Source: Acarospora socialis
Taxonomy: Eukaryota; Ascomycota; Lecanoromycetes; Acarosporales; Acarosporaceae
Assembly (NCBI GenBank): GCA_025617375.2
Contig: JAMYGW020000005.1
Location: 2,170,001 to 2,234,000, forward strand
Length of the DNA: 64,000 nucleotides
Reading direction: 5' to 3'
The stretch's first letter is position 1; the number at the start of each line of letters is the position of its first letter. A program made the translations under genes and the position numbers. Shown here one piece after another: positions 1-60,450 of this stretch. The notes beneath the pieces were generated by a model that had not been told where the DNA came from, made no database searches, and saw only the letters and a list, made by a program, of their open reading frames with translations.

Positions 1-975
1 TCTACATGTATAGATTTGTAGTCTACCCGAATCACGGGCATAAACATACCATAGATACCCAACTAGGTCACAAAGATCTCCGAAAAGTGATCTACTCGTA
101 GAGTACTGTTGCCTCCTCTACAGGCATATAGAAATTCGGCTCAGTTTTGCTACCTTCTCGTATTCTCCCCTCCACCTGCCACCGATGTGTAAATACACAC
201 CTGAACCCCCACCCCAAAGTTTTACCTACACATACGGGTAAGCCCTTACCTAAACTCCTACCTGACCTCCCGCCTATACTCCATACTCACACCTATACAC
301 ACCCCCCGAGTCCACGCCCAAGTTCACACTCAAGCTCATGCCCAACCCATGCCCCAGATTCGCGCCGCCCATACACACAGGACCGTCTGGGTTTCAGTCT
401 AACCAGACTTCTAAAGGTGGCCGTTTCAGAGTCTACGCAGAGACGTATATGGGGAGGTTTGAGTAAACTCACATCCCCACATGCAGCATGGGAGATATGA
501 CCATAGCAACCTACCGGCACCAAAAATCAGACAGGGTAGCTGTCCGTACTCCGACAGGACGCAAACTCGGGTGACTGGGAGTAACGGACAGTTTAGACAA
601 CCTTATTGTTTCGGCACGCTGATGGATTCGGGAACGGACTCTACAAGGAGGTGCTTCTAAGCCATTGTACTGTACACCATGGGCCAACCCCGTCCAAAAG
701 CCAACGACCTTGGCAACAATCGATACAGCGATCCCCATCATAACCCGTAATCATAACATGCCCGGCCTCCTGAGGGTTAGGTCCTCACACAAACGACGCT
801 GCGAGCAAGACTACCTATCCTATCCAGAAAACAGAAGGCCCCCAACGACAGAAACCCGCCCGCTGGTCTTAGCGTTAACGACAAGCATTGAGAAAGCCCC
901 TTATCCTCAACACGGTCACAGCTTCCCTACTTGTACAATCCCACCAAATGTACACCCATCCGTCCGGCCAGGACG
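1..975. other. Left-edge intergenic region
   Basis: No supported gene lies here. Short open frames are present, but none has a recognisable protein and they overlap on both strands. About 198-360 is a C-rich stretch with a degenerate period of about 12 bp, listed separately. The stretch next to 976 should hold the 3' UTR of the minus-strand TBC gene. Confidence 0.6.
198..360. repeat. Degenerate 12-bp-period C-rich repeat
   Basis: Cutting the stretch into 12-base blocks gives successive variants of a unit close to TACCTAAACTCC, for example TACCTAAACTCC followed by TACCTGACCTCC and CGCCTATACTCC. Copies are heavily diverged and the period was judged by eye. The same unit, in both orientations, recurs near 27.31-27.52 kb. 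It is not the TTAGGG telomere repeat. Confidence 0.5.
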
Positions 976-3375
976 CTACCTCTTCCCCACCCGGTTCTTC
1001 CGATCCTCCTTCCCCGCCGACCTGACACCCACCATGAACGCGTCTTCCGGCCCCACATCCCACCTCCCCCTCAACAGCCTCAACACGTCCTCCCTCGCGC
1101 CATAAAGCTTGCCCTCGAGCGAGCTCAGCACCGCAACAGCAGCGCGGATGCAGACGGTGTCGCCTTCGAAGACGAGGACGTCCCACACCCGACTCAGCAC
1201 GTCGATCTCCAGGCCGCAGGTGAAGAGGGTCTGGAACATCTGCTCGAAGAGCTCGGACTCCGTCAGGTGCAGGGTGTGGAAGAGATGGTGGTGGAGACGG
1301 GGCAGTTTGAGCGCGAGGATGTTGGTGGTGAGGGTGTAGGATTTGTGCATGGCGCCGGGGTCGTGCACGAAGAAGGCGAGGGGCAGGGGCCGGTTGAGGG
1401 TGTTGGCGAGGGTGCGGAAGGCGGTGGCGGGCGTGGGGAGGGTGAGGAGGAGGAGGGCGGCGATGAGCTGGGGAGGGTGGTCAGCAGACTGTTGGTAGAG
1501 ATAGGACGTCAGAGTTGAGGAGATCGTAATGCTTACATGTGTACCGTGGCTGTAGCCCACGTCGCTGCGATACATCGAATAGGCCATGAGCACGTCCACC
1601 AGGTCTTCGCTCAAGGGTCCACCGGGCTGGAAGATCTTCAGCTCGGGAAAGGTGTGCTGGATGTCCCTTCGTATGGCCTTGAACCACTGCTTCTCCCGCT
1701 CGTTGTTGGTGTTGCCTTCCGTGACTTCGACGTCCACCTCCTTTGCTCGCCGCAACGCCTTCCTGTAGCTTTCCTCCGTCAACGCCAAATCGTTGCCAAC
1801 GGCTCTCTGCCACACCTGGCCCCGTGACTTGGGCGCGATCCCGCGCCACCATAGTTCACGGGTTCGCGGTTGACGGATGGTATGCTCCCAGTTGGGTAGG
1901 ACGTGTTCATCCCAGATGCGTAGCAGCGAGGCTTTGGTGTCATCGCGCGCGCATTGCAGCTCGGTCACTCTGGCAGCCTTCTTCTTTTCTACGGGCGCAT
2001 AGTAGTCAGCAAAGGTTATCAAGACGGTCATGGGGTGAATGGACATGTCATGAGGAACCCTACCGTTCTCTTGCGCTACGGCCATCATGCGCTGATACTC
2101 TTTGAGATGCTTCCTCTCTTCTTTCTGGCTCTTTGGTGGCAACCAACTTGGTCTCGTCCGACTGAGCACCTTCTCCTTCTCCCTACTGATCGGTAAAGGA
2201 TCGATCATCACGTTGTTCTTGCGTAACGGTGGCAACTCCACCACCGACGTCCGCGAACGCTGCATCTTCTCCAAACTCGGCCGGGTTTCAGTAAACGTCC
2301 CTGATTGTACCTGAGCTTCCCGCCGCTGCTCGTTGACCGAGGCATAAGCTTCCAACGCATCGGTCAGAGACTTAGCTTCGTCGGAGAGCTCGGAAATGGC
2401 AGCTGTCCACGACTTGGCTCGAAACTTCGCAAAAGCTGGAAGATCGGCTTGTGAAGTCACCGAATTGCCTTGTATAACTCTAGGTTCGAAGGGCGACACA
2501 GGTAGGGAGCCGCGGTGACCGGACATCGTATCTGAGCGCGCTGGAGCCGAAGCAGGCGGATGAACGGAGGACATGCCCGCATCCATGGCTTGCCCTAGAG
2601 GGCTCTTAGGGTACCGCTCCGGGCTGTTGCTCGCAGAAGCGTTCGCAGAAGCAGTCGCAGAAATGGTCCTTTCTTGCGGCGGTCTTGGCGAGACCGGCAC
2701 GTTCCACAAGCTCGCATCATCCGGTAAGTCTTCATCCGAGTCGTGGTATTCCTCTTCGAGTTCCTTGATCGACTTGCGACTTGGCTGCCAAGAGCCGCGC
2801 CGACTCGGCGGCCTGTGAACCGGACTCGACCCTTGCCGCATGAGCGGTGACCCTCGTGGCATCGACCTGGGAGAAGTGGGCCGCGCCTGCGTATGCGCCG
2901 GCGAGGGCGACCGCGACCGATCCCTCGCCAGAGGGCTCATCCCAAGGGACAGCGCCGACGGACTTGTCGGGTGCCTCTTCACTCCGCCTCCAACCGGCAA
3001 ACCAAGTGAATGTTGTAAGGCATTCTGATTCAATGCGCCCATCACCTGGCCCTGCAAGCTGGGGAAGCCCGGTCTCTTGGAATTCACGGAAGTCAAGTCC
3101 CTCGTTGTCATGATCGTACCCGCACTCTTGCCCGCTCCAGCCCCGTTCCTTGTATGCGGTGGCGGGCGTTTCGGAATGCCATAACCGTAAATGTCCTGAT
3201 GGGAAAGCGCACGGTGGTCGTCGTCAAGACCGATATCCTCGAAGTGTGATATGTCGGTAAGGGCACCGTCCGGGTTCGAGGGCAGAGAGGAGGAGTGCAA
3301 CGAGGAGGATTTGGAAGACTTGGAGCCGGTCAGATCCGGAGGGGAGCCTGGAACGGTAGGCGCGAAAGTCGTCAT
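976..3375 (-). CDS. TBC-domain (Rab GAP-like) protein
   Basis: Two exons, complement(976..1467, 1537..3375), encode 776 aa. The 69-bp intron at 1468-1536 is required: removing it in phase joins SHGTH to LIAALLLL, the usual continuation of a TBC domain, while the unspliced frame carries 23 foreign residues. Residues 1-430 are Ser/Pro-rich and probably disordered. The TBC domain spans about 500-755, with the WWRGIAPKSRG entry, the RRDI segment and the FPELKIFQPGG segment visible. TBC proteins normally speed GTP hydrolysis by Rab GTPases through an Arg finger (IxxDxxR) and a Gln finger (YxQG). Here the first reads RRDIQH and the second YSHG, so both finger residues look replaced. The target Rab cannot be told from sequence. 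Confidence 0.88.
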   Translation of the reverse strand: MTTFAPTVPGSPPDLTGSKSSKSSSLHSSSLPSNPDGALTDISHFEDIGLDDDHRALSHQDIYGYGIPKRPPPHTRNGAGAGKSAGTIMTTRDLTSVNSKRPGFPSLQGQVMGALNQNALQHSLGLPVGGGVKRHPTSPSALSLGMSPLARDRSRSPSPAHTQARPTSPRSMPRGSPLMRQGSSPVHRPPSRRGSWQPSRKSIKELEEEYHDSDEDLPDDASLWNVPVSPRPPQERTISATASANASASNSPERYPKSPLGQAMDAGMSSVHPPASAPARSDTMSGHRGSLPVSPFEPRVIQGNSVTSQADLPAFAKFRAKSWTAAISELSDEAKSLTDALEAYASVNEQRREAQVQSGTFTETRPSLEKMQRSRTSVVELPPLRKNNVMIDPLPISREKEKVLSRTRPSWLPPKSQKEERKHLKEYQRMMAVAQENGRVPHDMSIHPMTVLITFADYYAPVEKKKAARVTELQCARDDTKASLLRIWDEHVLPNWEHTIRQPRTRELWWRGIAPKSRGQVWQRAVGNDLALTEESYRKALRRAKEVDVEVTEGNTNNEREKQWFKAIRRDIQHTFPELKIFQPGGPLSEDLVDVLMAYSMYRSDVGYSHGTHVSITISSTLTSYLYQQSADHPPQLIAALLLLTLPTPATAFRTLANTLNRPLPLAFFVHDPGAMHKSYTLTTNILALKLPRLHHHLFHTLHLTESELFEQMFQTLFTCGLEIDVLSRVWDVLVFEGDTVCIRAAVAVLSSLEGKLYGAREDVLRLLRGRWDVGPEDAFMVGVRSAGKEDRKNRVGKR

Positions 3376-4242
3376 TTCATCTCAAAAATTCCTCCGTAGG
3401 TCAGTCTGGTGTCGCAATTGCGACTCGCGATCGTGCAAAATCAATCGACAGGCTTGTGGCTATGTAATGATTGGGTGTTGTTGTGTATGTATATATTCGC
3501 AAACGAGTGTCCTATTTTCTATCGTGCCCCGGCATTGTTAACGAATGGCATGGTTCATAAGGATGTCAGTCAAACATATGTTGACTTGAATGGAGGAGTT
3601 TTTCGTTTCGGAGTTTTTGGTGGATATTGATGCACATGGGAAGTGGCTGATCGTAGATCGTGAGATTCCCACGGGCAGGTGCAGAGACGGAAAATGGTGG
3701 GGAGTCTGGGAGGTCTAGAGTACAACTGATTAGGATCTTGTTTTCAGGGGTATGCGGTCAGCAACGGCAAGCAGCAACCAGCACCAGCAGAAACAGAGCA
3801 GAGACCGGGCGCGTAACCGAATGCGGATGGCGTCGTCAATCTTGAGACGATACCGGTTCGAATATCGCACACCAATGTCAACACAAACACGAGGTCAAGC
3901 GGCACTGATTGGATGTTGATACTTTACGATTGTTTGAGCATACTCGTATACTCCAGAAGTTACTTCATGCTATGGCTTCGGCCGTCAGCACGCAGTGTTT
4001 GAGCAAAGATAAAGGTGCAACGAAGAGAATATCGAGAATCTCAATTTCGAACTCTCTTGCATGAGGCTGAGATCATTGTTACACATCAGCGGCTGATTGT
4101 TAGCGGCTACAACGAGCGTAATGCAAGCCATATGCACGCCGCCAGGTCTGGCTTTGTGAAACAAGCGACGATTTTAAAAGATAACTTATGCTCAATTACC
4201 AGGAGCGATTTCGACCTAAGGACTTGTCTCCAGATCCCCAAG
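3376..4242. other. Intergenic: TBC promoter and TERT 3' flank
   Basis: This stretch separates the start of the TBC gene from the stop of TERT, both on the minus strand. It should contain the TBC promoter and 5' leader and the TERT 3' UTR. No conserved reading frame or RNA gene was seen. Confidence 0.6.
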
Positions 4243-7200
4243 TCAGAATCTGAAGCCTTGAAACATCCGGTTGCCTTCCCTGACGACCCTGTTCATCCTC
4301 GTCCTTTCGACTGTGCCCTTCGCTTGACTCGTTTCGATCAGTCCGTCGAGGAGAGAGTTGACTTCCCGATACCTACTTTGCTTCCTGCCCAGCACGTGGC
4401 GGAAGGCCATCGATGCCAGCCTGGGTGCGCCGTGTCAGCCGGCATAAACCATTGAGAGCTATCTAGCCCATGGCCGAGTATGTCTGGGTGCGGAAATTGA
4501 CACTTACCACTTGATCTGCTGTCTGCTGACGGTGCATTGGTAAGCTTGCACGGCTGATGATCGTTGTTTACTTTTGGTGAGGTTGAAAGCCAGGTCTACG
4601 AGGTCTGAAAAGGTCTCTGTTGGTCGTCAAGCTTGTGAGATACATATCGTGAAGAAGTAATGAATTCGAGTTGTCTTGGAAAAAGCATACCCATCAGCAG
4701 CGAGGTCTTAGGTTGTCTACCGGACGGTAGACACTTCAGATAATGGTAGAACCGTGTAGCTGTCACGAGGAAGTTCTGGTATATGTTGCATAGCACCGTG
4801 TTGAGGGAGTTGAAAGATGTGTCAAGGAACATGGCATGCGCTTGGATCTTGAAGGAGCTGCTCGGAACATGAATCAGTCCTTCATACAGTAGTAGGCAGT
4901 TTTCTCAAGCCTTACTCTAACACTTTGCGATGGAAAGTCTTGCCTGGCACTCTCGAGAGTTCCACCGTGAGCGAGTCGGAAATTGCTGCGTGGATCAGTA
5001 CAGGTGCGGTTAAATCCCGAACAGGTTATTCGTACCCGTTTGTCGCTTCTGCTCCCTGTCCTTGGTGATCTCCAGACTCCTTGTGTCGATCAAGTTCCCG
5101 CAGTAAGGAAACCTCGTCGTGCCTACCAGCCTAGGCACCCGTGTCCCGTTGACAATCGTTTCAAAGTTGACCAGACTTTTCTCCCGATTGACACCGACAC
5201 CATACTTCTCTACTCCGTTGTGCATGATCTGAAGGAAGCTTTGAGCATGCTCTTTCCTTGTAGTAATCAAAAGGAAGTCATCGATCAATCTCAATAAGAG
5301 GCTCTCGCCGTCCGTGAGGAAGTCGAGCCATTCTCTCTCTAATTCTCCGTAGAAGAAGCTGCAAAGCAGAGTACTTATGACCGAACCCTGCGGGATTCCT
5401 TGCTTTTGCCGGTAGAATCTCTTGCCTATCTTGACAATGTTCCCCTCAACATGCTCTTCGAGCAGATCAAGCAAGTCATCCTTGTTTTGGACGTTCCGCA
5501 CCACCGAATCCACAAAGACGGTGTTCTTCTTTCTTCTGGCTAATTCGTTGTTGACAGTATGCTCGAACACGGAGAGATCATGCGTTGGTCCAGCCTTGGC
5601 GATGAACTTTCGTGTTGGTTTGGCTGGCGGGCCGACACCGGCTTTATACCTGCGGGGATTGGGTGCTTTGATTTCCGAATGGCGTGCTATGCTATATTCG
5701 TCTTCTGAGACGAGCTTCTCAATGATCTCCAAGACACAGCGCTGCGGTATAGTGTCGAAGCATGACTGGACGTCGACCTTAGCAAAGTAGAGTGCTTTTT
5801 CTGATAAGCAGTTGTGTCGAAGACGTTGCTTAAATGCTTTAATCTTGGGATACATGTCGCCGACGCAAAAGAGGGCAGAGCTCAACTTATCTGGTTGCTT
5901 GACTTTTTCGTAGCTCAGCATATTGAAAACAGGAGCCATGACGGAGTTGACACTTCGTCCCAACATCACTCTGCCATTGTGCGCCTTCAATACCCTTCGT
6001 CGGAGGTTCATGATAGGGCGGACACCCGTCTCTTTGGGCAACAGTCGGACCTGGCTGAACCCGAGGGCTCTTGCATCCAGTATACTTCTTGCCCTCTCCA
6101 TCTTCATTTCTTCGAACATGGAAAGTTTCATCGCCGATAACGATGGCTCTGATAGAGACCGCCAGACGTCGTGCCGGAAGAAGAAGAGGCGGTTGCGATG
6201 GAGGCTCGACTCCGTTACATGGAAATTTGAGCGTATCAATGGTATCACCAACGAGTCGAAGATATAGTAAATGAACTCAGACAAGATTTCCGTACGTTTG
6301 GAGAAGTCGGACTGGGACAACGCGGCATCGGACCTCATGTTCGGTGGTATCAGCCACGGGACACTGCGTATCTGTTATGCCGTCAGTTAAGACAGTGCTG
6401 GTAATGGTCATTGACTCTTTTATTTACCTTGATGCCTTGGATAACCTCGTGTAGGGATAGGCATTCGAACCTTCGCATTGTGACAAAGCGATCTACGTTT
6501 CGCATCACTGATTCCCTGTTATGGTCTTGAGCAGAACCCCAAAACTTATCCGGCACGACATTAGCAAGGACGGCCTGGCAAAAGGCAGACACGTCCGCTA
6601 CAGGGGTTGCGAAATCCATGATCGATTGCTTTCGAGTCGATGCCGAAGAGTGGGCTGATGCTCTAATGACTTCACTCGACTGGGGGCGGGTACTGAAGAT
6701 TACCTGCGTGTTCAACTGCGTGGACTGACTGCCCAGCGAGTTTTGAGAAGCGTTCACCAACGCCGACCGGCCCAAGGGAACCTTGCACAACTGCCAAGTG
6801 GCTCAGCAGGGTTAAGCAGAGGACATACAGGGCGTAGATTACCAGATTTGGGCAGTAGTACCTCAGGAGCTCTGTGTATGCGCACCGGCCATGGAGCTTC
6901 TGCATCTTGCTTACCAACTCTTGCACCATTCCTCGTAGCCTTCTCGGTACATGTTCCTCGCGGTTTCGAGTTGTGGAACCTTTGGTGATTCTTTTCGACC
7001 GTCCTCGAGCTCTAAAGTGAGCTATCTCTTGCTCCCGCAGGGTGTAATCTTTGAAAGGTTGTACGGTCTCTTTCGGGTCTATCTTACACGTGAAAGCATT
7101 GTGTAAACCAAATTGTCGCGGAAAAATGTACATCAGGATGTGCACCGTATGTTCCGAGTTCTTAAAGTCCGGAAACCGATTGAAAACATCTACCATATTC

Positions 7201-28006: not shown

Positions 28007-31000
28007 ATGGCGTTCGCTCTCAGCTCAGATCATGTTTCTACCAGCGTACTTCAACTCGATTACTTCAATTTCGAAATTTCACGATGTCTAGATGAATTAC
28101 GCTTCAGCCTAGGAGAGTATTCCGAAGAATCTCCTCATATCAAAGCTGAGTTACCTGTGCTGCAAGATACTCTATATCGTTTTAGGAAATATGTCAATGC
28201 CCGCACCATAAGAGAAGACAATGAAGGAACTCTACTACATGCTCTCGAGGAATGTCGAGAACAGTTCAAATTGCTTCAATCTTAGGTTGAAAAAACAGTA
28301 CAAACGCCATGTGACGCCTGGAAAGGAAAGAGCAGAAAGGCGTTTTCTTTACATGATGATGCAGACGACAAGAGCATGTTCAGAATTTTTCGGAAATATA
28401 TTGAGATCCTGGCAAGCTATCATGCCGTCACTTCGGCAACACTGCGATCCTTGAAGAAAAGAGGTATGCTTTTCCTCAACCAAGGTGTTACTTCAACTAA
28501 TACTAGTTTCCAGAAAAAAGGCTAGTCAAAATCTGCGATTGGCTGTCAGCACCAGATCCATCTCCAAATCACCAGAGAGCACTCGAGCAACGTCAAGGCG
28601 GCACCGGCCTTTGGTTTCTTGAGAGCGAACAATACAACAAATGGAAGACGGACGCTGGATCACTTCTCTGGATACAGGGACCTCCGGGATGCGGCAAAAC
28701 AATTCTAAGCACTGCGGTCGTCCAAGACATGATACAATGTACCCGCGACGACCCTGGGAAGAGAGTTGTATACTTCTACTTCGACTTCCGGGACACTCAG
28801 AAGCAGAGACCTAGCTCGATGTTAAAGTCGATGATCACTCAGCTCTTGCAGCGCTGTCTGGAGATACCGTCGGCCCTGAACAAACTGTTCTCGCATCGCG
28901 CCCTGAGGGAGCAACCAACGCTCTATGCATTGCTAGCTGTGCTGCAACAGTTCTTGAAGGAAAACTCCTTTGTTTCATACCTGATTCTGGATGCTCTCGA
29001 TGAGTGCAGTTCTCAAGCTGAGCTAATGGGCATCATCAAGAAAATTGCTAGCTGGCGAATTGCGAATGCACACATTCTAGTCACAAGGCGGAAGGAGCAA
29101 GATATCCAAAGCTCACCTGAAGCCATCGTGCACAATTCTATATATCTTCACAGCAATCTAGTGGACAAAGACATTGGCACATATGTTCAACAGAGATTGC
29201 CTGAAGACCAGGCGATACGACATGAAATTGAGGCAGCGTTGATGCAGCAAGCTGATGGAAGGTGAACCTCTCTCTCCATCAGCCCAGAAACTGATGTAAT
29301 AACGTTCCATTAACTCGTAGGTTTCAATGGGTGGTATGTCAGCTGAATGAGTTGAGAGGGTGTCTAAATCATTCAATGCTACGGAGATCCTTGGTGCAAC
29401 TGCCAGCAACCTTAGAAGCAACATATGATCGAATGTTGAGTGGTATCGATAGCCACCAATTTGAATATGTGCGCTGCATTCTACAGTGGCTCACTTTATC
29501 TACTCGGCCACTCCGAGTGGAAGAGCTGGCCGAAGCGCTCAGAATTGCGGTTGACGGCTCTCCTACATTCGATACGGATCAACTTCTCGCAGATCCCTTC
29601 GATATACTAAGAATCTGCCGAAGCCTTGTTACTATAACAGACAAGTCTGGCCATGCACTTGGGAAACCTACAGGCGAAAATCTCCCCGATCAGCAGGATA
29701 CAGATACGGAGCGTTTCTTCTCTTTGGCTCATCACACTGTCAAAGAGTACCTGCTCTCTGACAGCATTCAGGATGGTCCCGCAAAGGCGTTTGGTATTCA
29801 AGCTGCGGCTTCGAACACACTCATTGCTAAAAGCTGCCTCATATACATTCTACAGTTTCAAGAACACGACTGCCTAAGCATCGAGACTCTCCGAGAGCAT
29901 AGCTTTGCCGAATATGCCGCACGGTTCTGGGCTATTCATGCTCGAGCAGCGGAACAAAAGGCAACATCGATGTACAAGCTAATCAGACAGCTCTTCTCAC
30001 CCACTAATGGTGCGTATCTCAACTGGATTCGAATACACAACTTGGACGAACCTTGGACAGGCTTCAATCTTAGCAGAAGCTTACATGAAGTTCCAGCTCC
30101 GTTGTACTACGCGTCATTAGCTGGCTTGACTGCGGTTGTACGGCTATTTGTAAACGAGGTGGGGGTAGATATCAATGCAACAGGCGGACAATATGGCAAC
30201 GCACTGCAGGCGGCAGCAGGCGAAGGTCATGAAGAGGCTGTGAAGGTGTTGATAAAGGCAGGAGCGGATCTCAACGCTCAGGGCGGATATTACAGCAGCG
30301 CACTGCAGGCGGCATCAGGCGAAGGTCATGAAGAGGCTGTGAAGGTGTTGATAAAGGCAGGAGCGGATCTCAACGCTCAGGGCGGATATTATAGCAATAC
30401 TCTGCAGGCGGCATCAGGCGAAGGTCATGAAGAGGCTGTGACGGTGTTGATAAAGGCAGTCGCGAATCTCAACGCCCAGGGCAGATATTACAGCAATGCT
30501 CTGCAGGCGGCATCAAATGAAGGTCATGAGAGTGTGGTGAAATTGCTGCTGGAGTCGAAGCCAAATCCACACACCAAGTATGACTTCTACAGCACTGCTC
30601 TGCAGGCTGCGTCAAATCAAGGCCATGAAGGAGTTGTGAGGTTGTTGCTGGACTCATGGTGGGTGGATCCTGATGCTCGAGGTGAATATTACGGCACTGC
30701 TTTACAGGCTGCATCAAATCAGGGTCATGAGACCGTGGTGAAGTTGCTGCTGAGTGCAGGGGCAGATGCTAATGCCCAAGGTGGGAGATACGGTAATGCC
30801 CTACGCGCAGCATCAATTGCAGGCAATAAAAAGGTGCTTCAGCTGCTCCTCAAGCATGGGGCGGATGCCACCGCGGAAAGGGAAGACGTATGGTTGAAAG
30901 CTGCACGTGAGCATACATACGGAGATGTTTCGCAGCTTGTTGAGGACATTAAGGTGGCTAACTCTGCGGAGTCATCAATAAGCATGACGTTTGACTGCGA

Positions 31001-33056
31001 GATACCTGCTGTCATAAGCTTGGGGGAACACCAGCTTGGGAAAAGAAGAGAGCACTGCGTGGATGAGCTACTAAACCACGTTGTCCTTGTGGCGCGGACC
31101 GCCACCACTAAACAGTCCCGAGGAATAGAAGCTCTCACTTGTCTTGAGTACATGAAACGACGATGGGATCCTCTGGGAGAGCAGGTATTGAGAGATACTT
31201 CAGAACTTTACAGAGTAGGACCGGGTTTTAAGCTCGAAAATTGTAAGTTCCAACACTTTCGCCACAAGCCCCTCGTCAAGAAGTCTTGGTCTGTTGAGTC
31301 GACCGTGGCCATCTACAAAACTGACACACGCCTAGCATACAAAAACATGCATCAGTGTGAAACCCGATACATTCTAGCTTTCAACTCCAACTTCTCCCAA
31401 CTATCGGTTGATATTGACAGTGCCATACTGGATCACAGATTCGTCACCTTGATCAGCGCTTTTGATTGGCTCTGTAGAGCAATTCGGACTCCCAAGGACA
31501 TTCATAACTACGAGGGGCTCCCGCTTTCGTCATCTTCCTGCAGGATGTTTCAATCAAACGCAAAACACAAGGTCAAAATTGGATATGAACCATCAAAACA
31601 TGGAATATGCCTTGACTTCTCACTGTCAATAGAATCTTTCGGATACACGGAACACGATTGCTGGCAGCAACTCTTTCGCTCTTGCTTCGTAGTTGAAGAC
31701 AAGGGACTCTCGGAAGATCAAAGTCCTCATGGGAAGGGCTTGGAAATGTCATTTGATCTCATGGTCTCTCTTGCAGCTGTTGAATACCCGGTCCAAGTTA
31801 ACGGCGGAGTTGTTCTTGTCGGATATCATACTCTCTTGGTTCCCACACAGCTTGGAGAAGACTACGTTCAATTTCATCTTGAAGTCGACGAGAATCACCA
31901 GATCAACCCTTTCACTTTGAGTTACGGCAAAGGAATTTCCGTAATGGACTACACGCGATTCAAGAATATGCGTTGCTTCGTTGGCTGGTGTGAGATCGCT
32001 CATATCAAACTTGGAACCCAGGGACTCCCAGCCAAGGTTAAGTACTCTGGAGCCCAAGAAGTAAGGAGGACTCTGAAATTGACAGGCATTTCGGCGGGTG
32101 TCCAGGCTTTATCCGCGAGCCCATTACAAGCTGGACTGAATGGCCAGGCACAGTTCTCTTTCGTTTTCCATTGCCTAAGCTTCAGCCCTGCATCAGTGTA
32201 CACGAAGATGCTTTTGGATGCCTCGAAGCAAGTTGTTTTGATCTTGGACGTTGCAGCTCGACGGTCGTGGCTCGTCCCAAAACTGAGTGTCGTACTTCAT
32301 ATGGCTCATGCTTGGACCATCGAGAACAGTCTGGCGCAGACTACACTTTCAAGCCCGATACCATTTGCAGATCCCCACGGTAATGGAGCCGCTCTTGTAC
32401 AAGCATTGGAAGGCCACGGCGACACTATCATCTGCGGTCAGGGCGACGACTCCTTCAGGCTCCGCAGCCTATTCTTAGGCTTGAACATTAACCTGCTCGA
32501 GACCGTCAGTCATTGCGTCAGGAGTTCCAGCAAATCGCTCTACGGGTTCGAGTTCATGGACATGGTCACGCAACCTGGAAGAGGAGGATTCATGAAGAAG
32601 ATCAAGATCAAATTAGGTCAGAACTGGCTTGCACTGGCCAATCTGGTGGACGCAGTGATTGTCTGCTCGGAACTCGGGGAGGCGATGGCGCCTGCGAACG
32701 GAAACTCTCGCCGGAGCTCGAAGTGCAACAGTCTTCCTACCGGACAGGATTATCTCGCTGCCCACGTTTCTTGTCTGTGTTGTCTCGCAACCCGCGCTGG
32801 TAGAGAGTTCACCCAATCCCTGCAATCTTCGCGAGTTATGCTATCACAGGGAGAATTCTGGACGATCTCCGGGGAACCTTTTGAGACTTGCATCCATGAC
32901 GACCACAACACGGAGACGTGCTGGAATAGGGTAGGCATGGTTCAGAAGGTAGGCCAGAATAGCATTCTTCATGGAATGCGTTCCATTCTGGAGCAAAAGC
33001 ACGCAATAGGTCCAGCAACAGTGTTTCCGGAAGGTGCTGTTGTTTTTGGTAAATAG
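28007..33056 (+). pseudogene. NACHT-ankyrin NLR/STAND gene with in-frame TAG near its 5' end
   Basis: Exons 28007..28463, 28514..29261 and 29321..33056 would give 1646 codons. The N-terminal helical region continues in the same frame across a TAG at 28283-28285 with no obvious intron. The NACHT domain has Walker A IQGPPGCGKT and Walker B YLILDALDEC. A winged-helix-like stretch (QWVVCQLNELRGC, LEATYDRML) leads to about eight ankyrin repeats (30.1-30.88 kb). A further 690 residues or so follow that I cannot name. Fungal NLRs act in non-self recognition and cell death; that role here is family knowledge. Both introns are in phase, and everything after the TAG is open. Possibilities are a recent nonsense allele, read-through, a shorter product from the ATG at 28376, or an unrecognised mini-intron. 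Confidence 0.8.
30183..30875 (+). repeat. Seven tandem 99-bp ankyrin-coding units
   Basis: Seven consecutive 99-bp units, each 33 codons, begin at 30183, 30282, 30381, 30480, 30579, 30678 and 30777. Units 1-3 are almost identical at the DNA level over the GAAGGTCATGAAGAGGCTGT part, while units 4-7 have drifted. This points to recent duplication or gene conversion in the first three. They lie inside the NACHT gene and encode the GHEEAVKVLIKAGADLNAQG consensus. Confidence 0.85.
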
Positions 33057-54076: not shown

Positions 54077-54877
54077 ATGCATCTCCCCTTCATATACATC
54101 AACGGCTGGCCCGGTGTCGGCAAGCACACCATTGCCCGCGAACTCAAGGCACTCTTAAGCGGACATGGATCTGTTAATGTGGTCAGTGATCCCAAGACTG
54201 CGCAGTCGCTTTGAGTTATCATTCCTTCCCTATGCTTTCAGGAGGTATTGCAGTTTCTCACAACATGCGGAAGCAGATCCACAACCACCTGCACATCGAC
54301 CTCGCGGGCGCGCTCCTCGACCGGTCCAGTCCGGGCTACCAGACCCTGCGCCGACGTCTACGGTCCGTCCTCTTCGAGACTCTCACCACCGACCCCGACA
54401 CGTTTCGATCTATGTATGTTGCGTCCGTCTCCTCCCTGCCATTCTCTCCCTGAATGCAAGACCCCGACGCTCTCATTCTCCCCCAACCTCGCTCAACCCA
54501 CATCCCCTAACCCCACGCCCAGCTACGTCTTCACCGACTTCAACTGCGACAACGACCTCGGCACCAGCGTCGCCAACGAATACGCCTCGGCCGCTCAAGC
54601 CCGCGGCTGCGCCTTCATCCCCGTGGTGCTGACGTGCGCGGTGGAGGAGAACGCGCGGCGGATTCGGTCGCCCGAAAGGGTGGAGCTGGTGAGTATGGGG
54701 AAGGGTTTGTTGCTCGATACGACGGTGCTCGAGACGATGCGAGGGAATCAAGGGCTTTTTCGGTTTCGAAGGCCAGAGGAGTTAGAACTAGATGTTGGTG
54801 GTTTAAGGGCTGAGGAGGCGGCGAGGGTCATTGGAGCGCATGTGGAAGGTGTGATTAGAGGGCTGGGGAGTCGTTGA
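54077..54877 (+). CDS. Small P-loop kinase-like protein (AAA_33-type)
   Basis: Three exons, 54077..54181, 54277..54413 and 54523..54877, encode 198 aa. The P-loop is NGWPGVGKHT. The residue after Lys is His, with Thr next, a variant I associate with small fungal kinase-like P-loop proteins. Exon 2 gives NHLHIDLAGALLDRSSPGYQ. Exon 3 gives YVFTDFNCDND (Walker B-like) and the Arg-rich lid ENARRIRSPERVEL. The fold resembles small-molecule or nucleotide kinases of the zeta/chloramphenicol-phosphotransferase type; the substrate is unknown. The first intron (95 bp, donor GTCAGT) and the second (109 bp) keep phase, but the first acceptor has neighbours and is moderately sure. Confidence 0.72.
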
Positions 54878-55551
54878 CTTGGAATGTGTGTGGCGGCTGC
54901 ATCAGGTTGTTACGGTTGCAGTTTGTATTCACGTACATCAAAATTGGAGCAGAGGGATTGATAACATTCCACAAGCCGCAGCGCACATATTCACTGAAAC
55001 ATCGCGTTTGACAAGTCAATATCTCTATCGATGATAAGTGAAGGCAGGCAGCTAGATTTGGGAGAACTCAACCTCTTCTCACTTAATAAAGCATCACAAG
55101 CGTACTGTTGCGCTCTAGGACGCTGGCTAGGGCTACAACCCTATGATTGATCTTCAACACCGAGCAGGTTTGTTTAACGCTTGAGTTCACCACTTATCAC
55201 TTGAACTATCATAGTCTTGTGTCATTTGGAAGAGTATCTCAAGTGATTCGTGGGTTGATGTTCCCACGTGTTTGATTCAAGTGCATGCTCTGCCTAATGG
55301 TTGCACATTCAAAGTCTCAATTGCATTCACAAAGTAAAACTAGATGATTTGTGTTACTGATAACCTGCGCTCAGACTCACCTATAATCTTTCACTCGTAC
55401 TACTGCTTGTATCTTAATGTACCTGCCAAACAGCACTTTAACACCCCCTCGACTGCATGCTCTCGTCTACATATCCCGATCAACAAGGGTCTCAATTGCT
55501 CCATATCTCCTGGAGACTCGGAAACGTCAGAAGAATCAAAACATAGCCATC
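54878..55551. promoter_or_regulatory. Intergenic upstream of the asparaginase fusion
   Basis: AT-richer region of 0.67 kb, containing the 3' flank of the P-loop gene and the promoter of the fusion gene. An upstream in-frame ATG at 55417 could extend the fusion protein but gives a non-conserved leader. No other gene is seen. Confidence 0.5.
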
Positions 55552-58500
55552 ATGGCTGCCTCCAGATACTGCGTAATCCTGCATGCAGGCACGACCGACT
55601 CATGGCAGACGAACTTGGCTAATCAAAAGGACGTGGAGAGCATCCTTCAATCCGTTGTCCAAAAGGCTGGTGCTCGGCTGGCCATTGGAGAAAAAGCTCT
55701 GGATGTCGTCCAGTCAGTTGTATCTGCTCTGGAGGACTGTCCACACTTCAATGCGGGGAAAGGCGCTGTGCTGAACGAAGATGGAGAACATGAGGTTGGT
55801 CCTATGCCGAATCAAACAAATCTGGAGTGTAACTGGCTTCTGCCTGGGCTAAACCTTCATTACAGCTAGAAGCCGCAATCGTTGACGGAGCTACCGGAGC
55901 ATATGGTGCTGTGGCTTGCGTCCGAAATATCAAGAATCCCATCAACGCTTCACGTGCGGTTCTGAATTTTGGGCGAGCTTGCTTCCTTGTTGGCCATGCT
56001 GCAGATGCGTTTGCCGAATCAAGGGAATTGGAAATGGTCTCTAATGACTTTTTCACAACAAACACGCGGAAATCGCATTGGAAGGCACGCATAAACGAGT
56101 TACCTATGTCATCCAATGACCTAGAAACTGTTGGCGCTGTTGCTTTAGATCTTCATGGCAATCTAGCAGCAGCTGGATCCACAGGGGGCATGACCGGGAA
56201 GATGAAAGGTCGCCTTGGAGACACAGCTGTCGTGGGTGCTGGAATATACGCTGACAAGAAAGTGGCTATTGCTTGGTAAGTTCCATCATCTAATAATAAT
56301 GCATTGAAGGGGTTTGTTTAAGACTTTGAAGGTAAACTGATCGTGGATGATGTTCGTTTACAGTAGTGGCTCGGGAGACGACATTTTGCGCCATTCTGTT
56401 TCCAGCAAGATAGCGGCACACCTGCAACAGGGTAAACCGTTAGATGATGCCGTTGCCCAAGCAATCATCAATAAAGCAACAGAGAGCCCGTCTCCGTGCG
56501 CGGCGATCGCTATCTCTGCCGAGGGCGAAATGTCTGTGCAGTCTAGCGGTCGAGTGTTCCTTACTGCATCCCAGACGCCTTCGGGATCGCAAGTCTCCTT
56601 GAACGGAACGACTATTCCTCTGCTTCCACAGCATACTTTCTTTCAAAACGCATGTGTGTCTGCTAGGTTAACTCGATATCCTATCACTCTTTGTCACACT
56701 GTGGTTGTTTGCCATGGAACCAACGACTTGTCGTCATTGAGCCTTGACAAATTTCTCAGTGTTCTGTCTACTGCTCGTGCCATAGCTACTGCTGTCAGCT
56801 CCGTTAGCCAAGTCCATCGCTGCGGGCTGGTCAACGATGGCAGCGGTACAATTTCGCTTATTCCTTTACATGGGCTCTCTGAGGAGTGGAAACCAATCTT
56901 GCACAATGCGGAGGAATACAATGCCACTTTTCCTGGTTATCTGACATCGAAAAATGGACCAAAATTGGACGACGAAACCATGGATAGGATCCTAACAAGC
57001 CTCGGTAGTGTTACAGGTATCAAGAAACCCTTCAACAACCGGTTTAACGGGAAATCTGAAGATCAGAACCTCTTCGCTCGGATCATCCGTGGGGAGCTGG
57101 CTCAATGGCGTATCTGGGAAGACGAGTCACACGTTGCCTTCTTGACACCCTTCGCTAACACTCCTGGATATACCGTGCTAGTTCCTAGGAAACATTTAAG
57201 CAGTGATATCTTCAGCTTGAATGACCAAGCCTACGTGGACGTTATCACAGCTGCCCATACAGTCGCTCAACATCTCAAAGTGGCGTTCGGAGTCAAGCGG
57301 TGCGGCATAATCTTCGAAGGATATGAGATTGACTATGCTCATGTTAAGCTGATCCCCGTACATGAAAAGCAGTCTCTTGACGGTACATGCTTTACCCCTA
57401 TCGCTGGGCCGGCTTCCTTCCAAGAGACTTATTCAGGATATCTCACTTCTCAGTTCGCACCACTTGCGTCGGACCTTCGCCGACTATCTGAACTAGCTAT
57501 CCAGATACGAGAACTGCTAAGGCCCGAGACCAGTATCGTGGCACCCAAAACCTGGCAACAGCCTGAGACACATTCGCTACAGGCTATGAACAGCCCTTGG
57601 TACGCAGCTGTTTTTGCTCTCCAAGACACTCTCTTCCACACGACCACTGCTTTCTTCCAGCACCAAGTGGGTTACAGATACGCTTTTCTACCCGCAACTA
57701 CCGATTCCATCAGCTCCCCGATGGGCCTAGGCTCAGACTCTCTCCCTGTCCATGTCGCGCTTCACGGACGAAATACCTATCTTGCAGACTCAATGCAATT
57801 TACGCTCGAGTACCTCCTCCGGGTGGAGCCAGAACTCAAAGGCGCTTATTATATTGGCTGTTCGTTCCGCGGCGAAGATCACGACGAAACCCATCTCAAC
57901 CAATTCTTCCATATCGAGTGCGAGCTTCTCGGCACGCTGGACGACGGAATCGATGTCGCGGAACGGTATATTGCTACATTGGCATCAAACCTACTAGAGA
58001 TGAACCAGGATATCATCACCGCCTCAGCAGGATCCACGTCACACATCACTGCTCTATTATCTCAACTAAGACTCAACGGCGGTAAATTCCCGCGCATCAC
58101 GCTCGCCGATGTCATGGCAATCCTCGAGCAGACATCAGCTACAAACGCATGGAAACTCGCTGTTCCGGATGATCCTAGCAAAGGGTACTCGTTGACCCGC
58201 GCCGGCGAACAAGCTCTGATCAAGAAATTCAACGGCGCAGTCTGGCTTACTGAGCTCGATCACCTTAGCGTTCCCTTTTATCAAGCCTACCTTCCGGGTA
58301 CCGAGAATCGTAAAGCGCTCTGTGCCGACCTGCTCCTTGGGATTGGTGAAACGCTGGGGCTTGGACAACGGCATGTTGATGCTGAGACGGTCAGGGAAGC
58401 ATTGCAGATGCACGAGGTTCCGGTGGAGAACTATGAATGGTACGTTCGCATACGCGATGAGAGGAAGGGCGGGAGTGCGATACAGACAACAGGGTGGGGA

Positions 58501-58599
58501 ATGGGCATGGAGCGGTTTTTAGCTTGGGTGCTGAAACATCATGACATTCGCGACTTGGCAATTGTCCCGAGGTTGAAGGGCGCCAAGTTCCATCCTTGA
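55552..58599 (+). CDS. Asparaginase - HIT - HIT - AsnRS-like fusion protein
   Basis: Three exons, 55552..55794, 55866..56275 and 56364..58599, encode 962 aa. Residues 1 to about 330 are a type-2 (Ntn) L-asparaginase/isoaspartyl peptidase: NAGKGAVLNEDG, the nucleophile Thr169 in LETVGAVALD, STGG and GRLGDTAVVGAG. Residues about 330-440 resemble a HIT unit without its histidines. A second HIT unit (about 450-560) has ARIIRGELAQW and HVKLIPVH. Residues about 620-962 match the class II synthetase core of the AspRS/AsnRS group: LADSMQFTLEYLL, motif 2 CSFRGEDHDETHLNQFFHIE, and motif 3 GWGMGMERFL. There is no anticodon-binding domain, which recalls archaeal AsnRS-like asparagine synthetase. Both introns (71 and 88 bp) join in phase within the conserved asparaginase. 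Activities are inferred; a role in asparagine or amide-bond metabolism is likely. Confidence 0.88.
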
Positions 58600-58890
58600 G
58601 GTTTCAAAGGTGGTCAATCGGATAGATCAAGACTGATCGATGGACATGTCTCTAGATGTAATGCCATTAGCAGTTAAATTTATTACCTCTAGAGTCTAAC
58701 ACAAGTTGATAACATCAGTATCCTGATATCTCAAACTCGCTCATGCCAACACCCTTAACGCTAACCGAATCTGGGAAGTAGCTCCTCCACGCTAGTCACC
58801 TCACATCAAAACAGATCAGACCTCACCATCGACCGTAAATCACATCCCTACCCACCATAACTACCTCCAACTACCTGCAACATCACAGCC
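58600..58890. promoter_or_regulatory. Intergenic between fusion gene and 58.9-kb gene
   Basis: Short spacer holding the fusion gene's 3' end and the next promoter, with a C/A-rich leader before 58891. Confidence 0.5.
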
Positions 58891-60450
58891 ATGTCGTTCA
58901 TGGTCTTCAAACCCACCACTCAAGGCGTCTCCGACATGTCGAACCTAATGCAACCACGAACCGCCCAGATGTCCTCCGCCCAGACGCGTCCAACCAACCA
59001 AGTCCCGCTGCCCTTCGCGGAATCAATCCACGTCTTCGATCCCAGCTGGCATCCGCCGACTCCGCAAAGCCAAGCGCGTCCACTCCATCAATCCCATCAA
59101 TTCCCTAGGTCGCCGTACCAACACCAGCACGTCTCCCCTCGCTATGGCAATAACAACAACAACGCGCAACAGCAACAGGCCCGCGACATCATTCCCGCGC
59201 CAGCGACACTGACCGCTCCCGGCGTGACGATTGGTGCTATCGCGCTTACGTGCTACGATGAGCTGGCGCTTATTCGCTACTGTGTGGACTATCAAGGCTA
59301 TTATCGTTCCGGCTACCGGACGAAGTTCTGGGTGTCTGCGCGTAAAGCGCTCGGGTCGGTCGTGGGCAAGGACGTCGAGGACGTGGAGCAGCGGATGCGA
59401 GTATTGCTCGCGAAGAGGCGGGTGGAGAAGGGCCAGCTGGAAGACCACGGAGTAGTACGGAAGGCGTTGGTAATGCCGGAGTACAGGGAGTTACTGGACA
59501 AGTGGGATGACCGGGTCCGGTATGTGGAGAGTGGCAACGAGAAAGTGGCGAGTCGAGAGACGGGCATGGATGCGGGCGACAGTGACGGCGTCGGCTCGCC
59601 CGTCAAAGGCGCCGCCGAAGTCCCGAACATGACCACCCCGAGCTCCAACCCTGGCTGGCTGCTCGAGAGTCCCACCCGCGCCCACGAAACAAGCGAAGAG
59701 ACCTCCCCCGCGCAGAACGCCAACTCCGGCGACAAACCGCACCGCACGCGCCTGAAGCCCGCCGAGGAAGTCGTTCTCCTCCGCCTCTGCGTCCAGCACA
59801 AAGATCTCTACAAGACGCTCTTCAAAGCGGCCTTCTGGAAGTTCATCCAGAAGAAGCTGCGCGAGGAGACGGGCAAGCACTTCACAAACCCGGACGGCCG
59901 CATCAAGGTCCTGCTGAAGCGGCGCGAGCAGGAGCGCAAGGAAGTGCAGGAGCGCGGCCGTCTGACAAGCGACCTCGTGGACCGCCGCTACAAGCCCTGG
60001 CTCGACAGGTGGCAGGAGTGCGTCGACGAGGTCGGCGGCCACCGCAAGCGCCGCACCCGCGACGGCACCGAGCTCCGCTCCGCCGAGGAGGTCCTGCGCG
60101 ACTCCGACGCCGTGCAGCAGCAGCCGAGCCCGCAGACTTCGGACGCCTTCCATAACGGCACGGCTGGCACTGACGCTTACCCGCAGCGTCATGATGGCGG
60201 GTACGGGCACGAACACGACGCAGATCTCGAGTCGGTCAAGGTCGAGCACGACAAGATCATGCACGATCTGACGTCCGACCCGAGCGCCGACAACACCTTG
60301 CTCCTGCGTCTGGAAGGGAACAGAGCTAGGGAGATGGATCTTTTCCGGAGGAGGCTGGATTCCGTGACGGACGTCGTGAGTTCGATGAGGAGGGAGCGGG
60401 AGGAGATGAGGAGGCAGCTTGAGGGGCTGAAGAAGGGGGTCGAGACGTAG
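58891..60450 (+). CDS. Fungal protein with duplicated helical (Myb/trihelix-like) domain
   Basis: A single exon encodes 519 aa. The first 110 residues are Pro/Gln/Asn-rich. Two related domains follow: about 120-220 (CYDELALIRYCVDYQGYY, FWVSARKALG, RMRVLLAKRR, YRELLDKWDDRV) and about 290-385 (PAEEVVLLRLCVQHKDLY, FWKFIQKKLREE, RIKVLLKRREQE, YKPWLDRWQECV). They align over their whole length and have Trp spacing like Myb/trihelix DNA-binding folds. The C-terminus (470-519) is a likely coiled coil. DNA binding is a guess; no family name is offered. Confidence 0.78.
   Translation: MSFMVFKPTTQGVSDMSNLMQPRTAQMSSAQTRPTNQVPLPFAESIHVFDPSWHPPTPQSQARPLHQSHQFPRSPYQHQHVSPRYGNNNNNAQQQQARDIIPAPATLTAPGVTIGAIALTCYDELALIRYCVDYQGYYRSGYRTKFWVSARKALGSVVGKDVEDVEQRMRVLLAKRRVEKGQLEDHGVVRKALVMPEYRELLDKWDDRVRYVESGNEKVASRETGMDAGDSDGVGSPVKGAAEVPNMTTPSSNPGWLLESPTRAHETSEETSPAQNANSGDKPHRTRLKPAEEVVLLRLCVQHKDLYKTLFKAAFWKFIQKKLREETGKHFTNPDGRIKVLLKRREQERKEVQERGRLTSDLVDRRYKPWLDRWQECVDEVGGHRKRRTRDGTELRSAEEVLRDSDAVQQQPSPQTSDAFHNGTAGTDAYPQRHDGGYGHEHDADLESVKVEHDKIMHDLTSDPSADNTLLLRLEGNRAREMDLFRRRLDSVTDVVSSMRREREEMRRQLEGLKKGVET

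Follow-up and report, generated by a model that had tools for sequence, protein, structure and literature searches.

INTRODUCTION

In microcin C, MccB forms the phosphorus-nitrogen (P-N) bond and MccH cuts it, and the carboxamide is cut by MccF or MccG, according to the available part of one report (PMC9239234). MccH is described, in the accessible portion of a second paper, as a HIT phosphoramidase specific for aspartamide-adenylate with the motif ExxxxxHxHxKxx, in which an essential Lys replaces the third His of HinT and the H39 equivalent has become Phe (F44); H101N and K103H each abolished its activity, and diverse bacteria carry stand-alone MccH homologues (PMC7157772). AgnA, the agrocin 84 synthetase of plasmid pAgK84, appears in the available text of a third as a truncated homologue of asparaginyl-tRNA synthetase (AsnRS) without the anticodon domain (PMC4392301). 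Here we analyse a gene of the fungus Acarospora socialis whose predicted product consists of an asparaginase of the isoaspartyl peptidase type, two HIT units and, in its C-terminal part, an AsnRS-like core. It lies at 55552-58599 (+ strand) of a 64,000-nucleotide stretch (assembly GCA_025617375.2, contig JAMYGW020000005.1, positions 2,170,001 to 2,234,000 of the forward strand), all of which is called the window below.

We tentatively propose, with somewhat less than even confidence, that this fused protein is a single-chain enzyme of Asn-dependent aminoacyl-nucleotide phosphoramidate (P-N) metabolism. We first document how the protein is built, what each domain is related to and that most of the residues expected to be catalytic are retained.

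RESULTS

One spliced frame encodes the four units

Three exons of the window join in frame to a predicted protein of 962 amino acids, in which HIT1, HIT2 and the synthetase occupy one uninterrupted open frame. A Pfam search of this protein returned the three families that the earlier note on this DNA had expected, each over its curated cut-off: Asparaginase_2 (residues 7-290, 2e-77), HIT (463-533, 4.5e-7) and tRNA-synt_2 (627-955, 1.9e-24). The fourth match, tRNA-synt_2d (713-752, 1e-4), overlaps tRNA-synt_2. The features are as follows; L015 is a bacterial frame introduced after the list.

55552..55794, +: exon 1, from the ATG start to the GAG^GT donor; intronless L015 crosses the junction gap-free
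55795..55865, +: intron 1, 71 bp, GTTGGT...TTACAG (GT-AG)
55866..56275, +: exon 2 (joined frame)
56276..56363, +: intron 2, 88 bp, GTAAGT...TTTACAG (GT-AG)
56364..58599, +: exon 3, through the stop codon (joined frame)
55570..56580, introns included, +: Asparaginase_2 domain (N-terminal nucleophile, Ntn; isoaspartyl peptidase type), residues 7-290 (Pfam 2e-77; PDB 2zak 5.4e-46)
56127..56129, +: Thr169, expected autocleavage nucleophile (ETVGAVALD; sequence and PDB beta-subunit chains)
56626..57066, +: HIT1, degenerate copy with the catalytic motif lost, residues 306-452 (hhalign 98.6%, E 7e-16 against a HIT2/MccH-type profile)
57067..57480, +: HIT2 with MccH-type C-terminal extension, residues 453-590 (Pfam HIT, alignment)
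57316..57348, +: HIT2 signature E536-xxxxx-Y542-A-H544-V-K546 (MccH: ExxxxxHxHxK; motif comparison)
57541..58596, +: AgnA-like AsnRS paralogue core, residues 611-962 (Pfam, tblastn, profile, tree, fold search)
57868..57894, +: class II motif 2, FRGE...THL (R720, E722, H728; alignment)
58492..58515, +: class II motif 3, GWGMGMER (R935; alignment)

Separate genes could have been merged in the model through an error of annotation or assembly, and the predicted donor of intron 1 (GTTGGT) is weaker than consensus. However, HIT1, HIT2 and the synthetase share one unbroken frame, and an intronless bacterial frame, L015, aligns with residues 6-962, gap-free across both splice junctions; we therefore rejected a gene-model artefact. 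The flank of L015 also has matches on further contigs of the same genome. An artefact is thus largely refuted and hardly credible, and the single spliced frame of 962 amino acids, with its GT-AG introns, holds as first read.

An in-frame ATG near 55417 would extend the N terminus by 45 residues (55417-55551). Several of these are basic, and the extension could be a mitochondrial targeting peptide.

The same fusion occurs in Candidatus Parabeggiatoa

L015 was the best match when prokaryote species genomes were scanned with the C-terminal alignment. It is a single intronless open frame (1-4500, 5' end open) on a 6,460-bp contig of Candidatus Parabeggiatoa (QNER01000461.1). Both proteins have Asparaginase_2, a degenerate HIT, a HIT with ExxxxxYxHxK and the AgnA-like domain in one chain. 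Identity is 41% in the asparaginase, 37% in HIT1, 48% in HIT2 and 54% in the synthetase (41.5% over the 1028-position alignment). The checked catalytic residues are the same or conservatively changed at these levels of domain identity (37-54%), except where Glu168, directly before the fungal nucleophile, is replaced by Gly. In contrast to the fungal protein, L015 has no introns and carries an additional carnitine-acyltransferase-like domain at its N terminus.

This additional domain (L015 76-1173; Carn_acyltransf, Pfam 9.4e-55) has kin in the PDB and an EHTIVDG motif. The family gave no match in 14 prokaryote control genomes; in the fungal genome (31.1 Mb, 38 contigs) it is found on contigs C1 and C2, and the window holds no real counterpart of the L015 domain (best E 1.9). 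An acyltransferase at the N terminus would suit a synthetase that transfers Asn to some other acceptor, such as a lipid, peptide or protein, with the asparaginase and HIT parts as editing units. We consider this explanation quite unlikely: Pfam found no acceptor-binding domain in the fungal protein, and the kin of AgnA adjoin genes of the nucleotide-antibiotic type.

The GC content of L015 is 48-57% in the gene and ~40% in the 3' flank. Repeats of this flank gave 108 matches in the same genome, 7 on the same contig and 101 on others (40 of 1180 candidates scored). As these repeats recur on other contigs, the contig belongs to the Parabeggiatoa genome, and contamination of the bin was rejected.

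Among 42 genomes of Parabeggiatoa's order, only that genome had an AgnA-like domain at E 1e-40. A query of HIT1-HIT2-synthetase against 398 Pseudomonadota genomes matched in 9, with the fusion only in Parabeggiatoa; the remaining matches were one MccH-type HIT alone and seven synthetases without the other units (27-29% identity). Viral contigs scanned with the synthetase profile gave 85 pattern matches and no relative. Fungal sequence was covered through the Acarospora socialis genome itself. The distribution suggests lateral transfer between the fungus and Parabeggiatoa, in either direction.

The C-terminal domain is grouped with AgnA

In a tblastn search of plasmids 29 records matched, the best 18 at 38.5-49.8% identity; agnA of pAgK84, annotated as Agrocin84-synthetase, was among these at 38.5%. 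AgnA, like the fungal domain, is a class II AsnRS core without the anticodon domain and falls in the same clade. Unlike the fungal fusion, it stands alone, its gene lying beside MccF-like and LeuRS genes in the cluster of a Trojan-horse antibiotic, and its tree branch is long. The earlier note had seen class II motifs 2 and 3 and noted the lack of an anticodon-binding (oligonucleotide-binding, OB) domain, and Pfam lists no such domain on the 962-residue protein.

A 99-row tree placed the fungal domain as sister to that of Parabeggiatoa (SH-aLRT, an approximate likelihood ratio test, 99), and the pair is nested in 90 AgnA-like rows (SH-aLRT 99), apart from 9 AsnRS-like rows; the method was a quick one with long branches flagged, including those of AgnA's own rows (L013 and L014). 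A profile of 41 family rows, the fungal row included, scored 162 bits against AsnRS (1x54), 102 against aspartyl-tRNA synthetase (AspRS, 1b8a) and 80.9 against the archaeal asparagine synthetase (3p8t). AlphaFold2 (AF2) gave a good model of the synthetase part: from construct residue 311 on, 29 of the 36 blocks of ten residues scored above 80. With this model as query the first 30 PDB fold matches were all AsnRS, and archaeal asparagine synthetase was not among the best 50 of 885. AsnRS 1x54, the best profile and fold match, has the LE pocket motif in common with the fusion, which differs in having no anticodon-binding domain and in the long branch that separates it from the AsnRS-like rows.

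The pocket motif of the fusion is DSMQFTLE. Two other synthetase genes of the same genome carry QSSQLYLE and QSPQLHKQ, which we take to be the AsnRS type and the AspRS type with its characteristic Lys; the remaining synthetase loci showed no such stretch in a motif search. The AspRS-type Lys is absent from the fusion motif. Besides itself, the synthetase core matched only one gene of its own genome, on contig C1 (30% identity), which carries QSSQLYLE. A housekeeping AsnRS was therefore rejected as the identity of the domain, and so was an archaeal asparagine synthetase, on its profile score and the fold matches. Judged on sequence, the C-terminal domain belongs to the AgnA family and is kin of AsnRS rather than of asparagine synthetase or AspRS.

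These results bear on the idea of the earlier note that the protein could be a self-contained Asn/Asp cycle, in which an asparagine synthetase and an asparaginase are combined and HIT clears stray adenylates. The asparaginase domain is intact, and the closest NCBIfam models are named 'asparagine synthetase A'. However, every such match lay under the curated cut-off, in the fungal protein as in six AgnA-like proteins scanned; since AgnA itself and five other AgnA-like proteins reach only sub-cut-off scores, this label says little on function. The profile is far nearer to AsnRS than to the archaeal enzyme, the pocket is of the AsnRS type (QFTLE resembles QLYLE, not QLHKQ), and Asn_synthase (AsnB-type) is matched elsewhere in the fungal genome, strongly on contig C2 and weakly on C6. 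We regard the cycle as improbable. The class II homology on which the earlier account depended was found (tRNA-synt_2, AsnRS profile and fold matches), and its broader idea, one protein whose three activities would deal with Asp/Asn amides and adenylates, is supported; its comparison with archaeal asparagine synthetase and the cycle built on it do not.

HIT2 resembles MccH, and HIT1 is a dead copy

The plural 'HIT units' of the earlier note was apt, as residues ~306-452 match the HIT2/MccH-type profile with a probability of 98.6%, with the catalytic motif gone in HIT1. The HIT2 motif reads E-GYEID-Y-A-H-V-K in the fungus and E-GMGID-Y-C-H-V-K in L015. In common with the MccH clade as described in the available part of PMC7157772, HIT2 has E536, catalytic H544 and K546, loss of the H39 equivalent and a C-terminal extension. 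It differs from that clade in the Tyr at the first motif His, in being duplicated beside a dead copy and in being fused. This Tyr is found in both fused proteins (Y542 in the fungus), and HIT2 therefore falls outside the MccH clade in the strict sense.

The H39 equivalent is Y487 in fungal HIT2, Phe in L015 and in another HIT (L127), and His in three canonical HITs (L118-L120). The YSGYxTS extension also occurs in three MccH-like proteins (L116, L117 and L024). Four other HIT genes were found in the fungal genome, three of them canonical (HLHTH, HLHIH, HVHFH) and the fourth a weak one in which no motif was seen. AF2 was poor for the HIT pair (mean pLDDT, its local confidence score, 43.8 in the second model). 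As the likeness to MccH rests on motifs, HIT2 may work like MccH, and cleavage of an adenylylated compound by this part, as first suggested, is plausible.

An MccH-type HIT gene was also seen on a small mobilizable 6.6-kb plasmid of Acinetobacter lwoffii (L117), in line with a mobile function.

The asparaginase domain retains the Ntn residues

Asparaginase_2 scored 260.8 bits in Pfam against a cut-off of 27, and the beta-subunit chains found in the PDB search start at query residue 169 or 170, in agreement with the Ntn asparaginase and its nucleophile-type Thr at 169 that had been read from the sequence. In ASPARAGINASE, T169, T187, R197, D200 and N67 are retained in the fungal protein; we take T169 to be the Ntn nucleophile, T187 the second Thr and R197/D200 the substrate-binding pair, as in the human and E. 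coli enzymes. At the oxyanion position the fungus has Ser and L015 has Thr.

It shows the Ntn domain (5.4e-46), the Thr nucleophile, STGG and GR.GD in common with the E. coli-type L-asparaginase/beta-aspartyl-peptidase (PDB 2zak), but it is fused and has Glu168 before the nucleophile. Against the NCBIfam beta-aspartyl-peptidase model it reached 179.9 bits, under the cut-off of 567. Enzymes of the asparaginase family hydrolyse N-substituted beta-aspartyl amides, such as beta-aspartyl peptides and N-acetylglucosaminyl-Asn; Asn bearing AMP on the amide nitrogen would therefore fall among their substrates.

Bacterial AgnA-like genes lie near MccF-like peptidases

We examined 89 AgnA-like loci, nine from plasmids and 80 from the genome-contig scan with the C-terminal alignment (the best 80 of 187 confirmed relatives). 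Counts on 74 loci leave out 15 in which the open reading frame (ORF) caller lost the synthetase frame. An MccF-like S66 peptidase was found near the AgnA-like gene in at least 51 of the 74 (median gap 1.3 kb), a lower bound because the caller lost frames and missed at least one annotated LD-carboxypeptidase (L010). In the control, 8 of the 60 Pseudomonadota genomes sampled had S66 over the cut-off, from which 0.06 genes would be expected for these loci, a rough figure since the control is one phylum and the loci are mixed. A looser clustering of all 89 loci, with gene names taken from the annotated plasmid loci, placed S66 in 58 and an S-adenosylmethionine methyltransferase in 39. A second gene resembling an aminoacyl-tRNA synthetase (aaRS), of the types queried, was present in 29 of the 89.

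Several of these loci have features of their own. That on NZ_CP109191.1 (L010, 8971-17113) combines the AgnA-like gene with a methyltransferase, FAD and molybdopterin hydroxylase subunits, a class II aaRS-like gene and the LD-carboxypeptidase, and looks like a phosmidosine-type cluster; phosmidosine is a methylated prolyl phosphoramidate of 8-oxoadenosine. In two others (L009, 6948-17859; L012, 4798-9999) the AgnA-like gene lies beside AlaRS-related and full AlaRS genes, possibly for an alanyl-nucleotide antibiotic with AlaRS self-immunity. On a megaplasmid of Xenorhabdus bovienii (L007, 8977-17627), an agrocin-like set of AgnA-like, methyltransferase, LD-carboxypeptidase, LeuRS and aaRS-like genes lies near an XyeA/XyeB locus for a ribosomally synthesized and post-translationally modified peptide (RiPP).

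Genes around the fungal fusion

Pfam matched 13 of the 21 other window frames of at least 200 amino acids: MCM7, PEX1, RhoGAP, RhoGEF, TBC, telomerase, BAR, MutS (two frames), DAP3 (two frames), NACHT and ankyrin. On these 21 frames, the fungal gene lies outside any nucleotide-antibiotic cluster of the AgnA type. In our judgement, the structure of the gene and its neighbours fit a filamentous fungus.

A NACHT (NPHP3_N) frame followed by an ankyrin-repeat frame (28507-33053, +) is likely a fungal gene resembling the NOD-like receptors (NLR). An apparently spliced gene (54078-54877, +) lies directly upstream of the fusion. It has a P-loop, INGWPGVGKHTIAREL, and may encode a small kinase; Pfam matched nothing in the single exon that was scanned. 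Downstream, a 529-amino-acid frame without a Pfam match (58861-60447, +) has two similar blocks, around YRTKFWVSARKAL... and YKTLFKAAFWKFI....

The main rival explanation is detoxification. The fungus could use the protein to destroy aminoacyl-nucleotide toxins of bacteria, such as microcin C, agrocin or phosmidosine-like compounds, HIT2 cutting P-N, the asparaginase cutting the carboxamide and the AsnRS-like domain capturing the adenylate analogue. The lack of biosynthetic neighbours among the window frames scanned, the MccH-type HIT2 and the stand-alone MccH homologues of diverse bacteria would fit, and resistance by MccH, MccF and MccG uses these same two cuts (available parts of PMC9239234 and PMC7157772). 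But the synthetase keeps motifs 2 and 3 and the invariant columns of the AgnA-like proteins, which mere binding would not need. We hold detoxification to be less likely than P-N metabolism in the sense proposed above.

DISCUSSION

The enzymatic activity of the fused protein, its direction (biosynthesis or detoxification) and its product we infer from the kinships described above. If it acts in P-N metabolism, the AgnA-like domain would bind Asn and ATP like AsnRS and, instead of charging tRNA, would form an N-P bond derived from Asn, giving (iso)asparaginyl-NH-AMP; this step is drawn by analogy from the structure of agrocin 84. The Ntn asparaginase would cut the aspartyl amide to release Asp and adenosine 5'-phosphoramidate (H2N-AMP), and would stand in for the MccF-like S66 peptidase that accompanies the bacterial AgnA-like genes. 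HIT2, seated on dead HIT1 as an internal pseudo-dimer, would cleave or transfer at the P-N bond and so limit or redirect the nucleotide. The strongest argument for P-N metabolism is that all three activities would act on a single system of bonds. An (iso)asparaginyl phosphoramidate nucleotide has the best support as the class of substrate, rather than a turnover of free Asp and Asn.

Several observations weigh against this proposal. Its weakest point is that a search of the literature, outside which most subscription journals lay, gave no demonstrated AgnA-type reaction; nor did it give a description of an asparaginase-HIT-AgnA-like fusion. A synthetase in one chain with two hydrolases of its product looks futile, unless there is channelling or HIT2 is a transferase, and HIT2 has Tyr542 for the first His of the MccH motif. 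The known fused copies are two only, and Pfam found no biosynthetic, methyltransferase, S66 or aaRS gene among the 21 window frames of at least 200 amino acids. Outside the fusion, HIT was near an AgnA-like gene in 2 loci (0.9 expected, P 0.22; density from 124 matches with the fusion included) and Asparaginase_2 in 1 (0.05 expected, P 0.05), the control for both coming from a single phylum. These associations are weak in number, about chance or barely above it, yet close in kind. In one, a tandem HIT-HIT gene whose motif is not MccH-type ends 1 bp before the AgnA-like frame (L062). In another AgnA-like locus, an MccH-type HIT accompanies genes for LuxE, a methyltransferase and a class II aaRS (L024), and Asparaginase_2 shares a third with ThiF and LuxE, S66 being 9.4 kb away (L051).

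Adenosine 5'-phosphoramidate is believed to be widespread, but, in the available part of one account, Chlorella is the only source in which it has been found among the nucleotides of the cell (PMC7072326). A more specific form of our proposal, possible although we think it rather doubtful, is a eukaryotic P-N module in a single polypeptide. Asn would serve as the nitrogen donor for adenosine 5'-phosphoramidate or for an asparaginyl phosphoramidate nucleotide, which the AgnA-like domain makes, the asparaginase releases and the MccH-type HIT consumes or transfers.

If this more specific form is correct, the AgnA-like and MccF-like proteins together would be the P-N module by which agrocin 84-like clusters in general carry out biosynthesis, and MccF-like enzymes would serve synthesis, not just immunity. 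As the fungal protein joins an AgnA-like synthetase to two hydrolases expected to act on such a nucleotide, a single purified protein would suffice to test the pathway. To judge from sequence comparison, the bacterial enzymes nearest to the three deal with amino-acid nucleotides of the same kind as microcin C and agrocin 84. The fusion would extend this enzyme set to a eukaryote and connect the fungus laterally with a giant sulfur bacterium, and its presence in both organisms points to undescribed nucleotide chemistry in a fungus.

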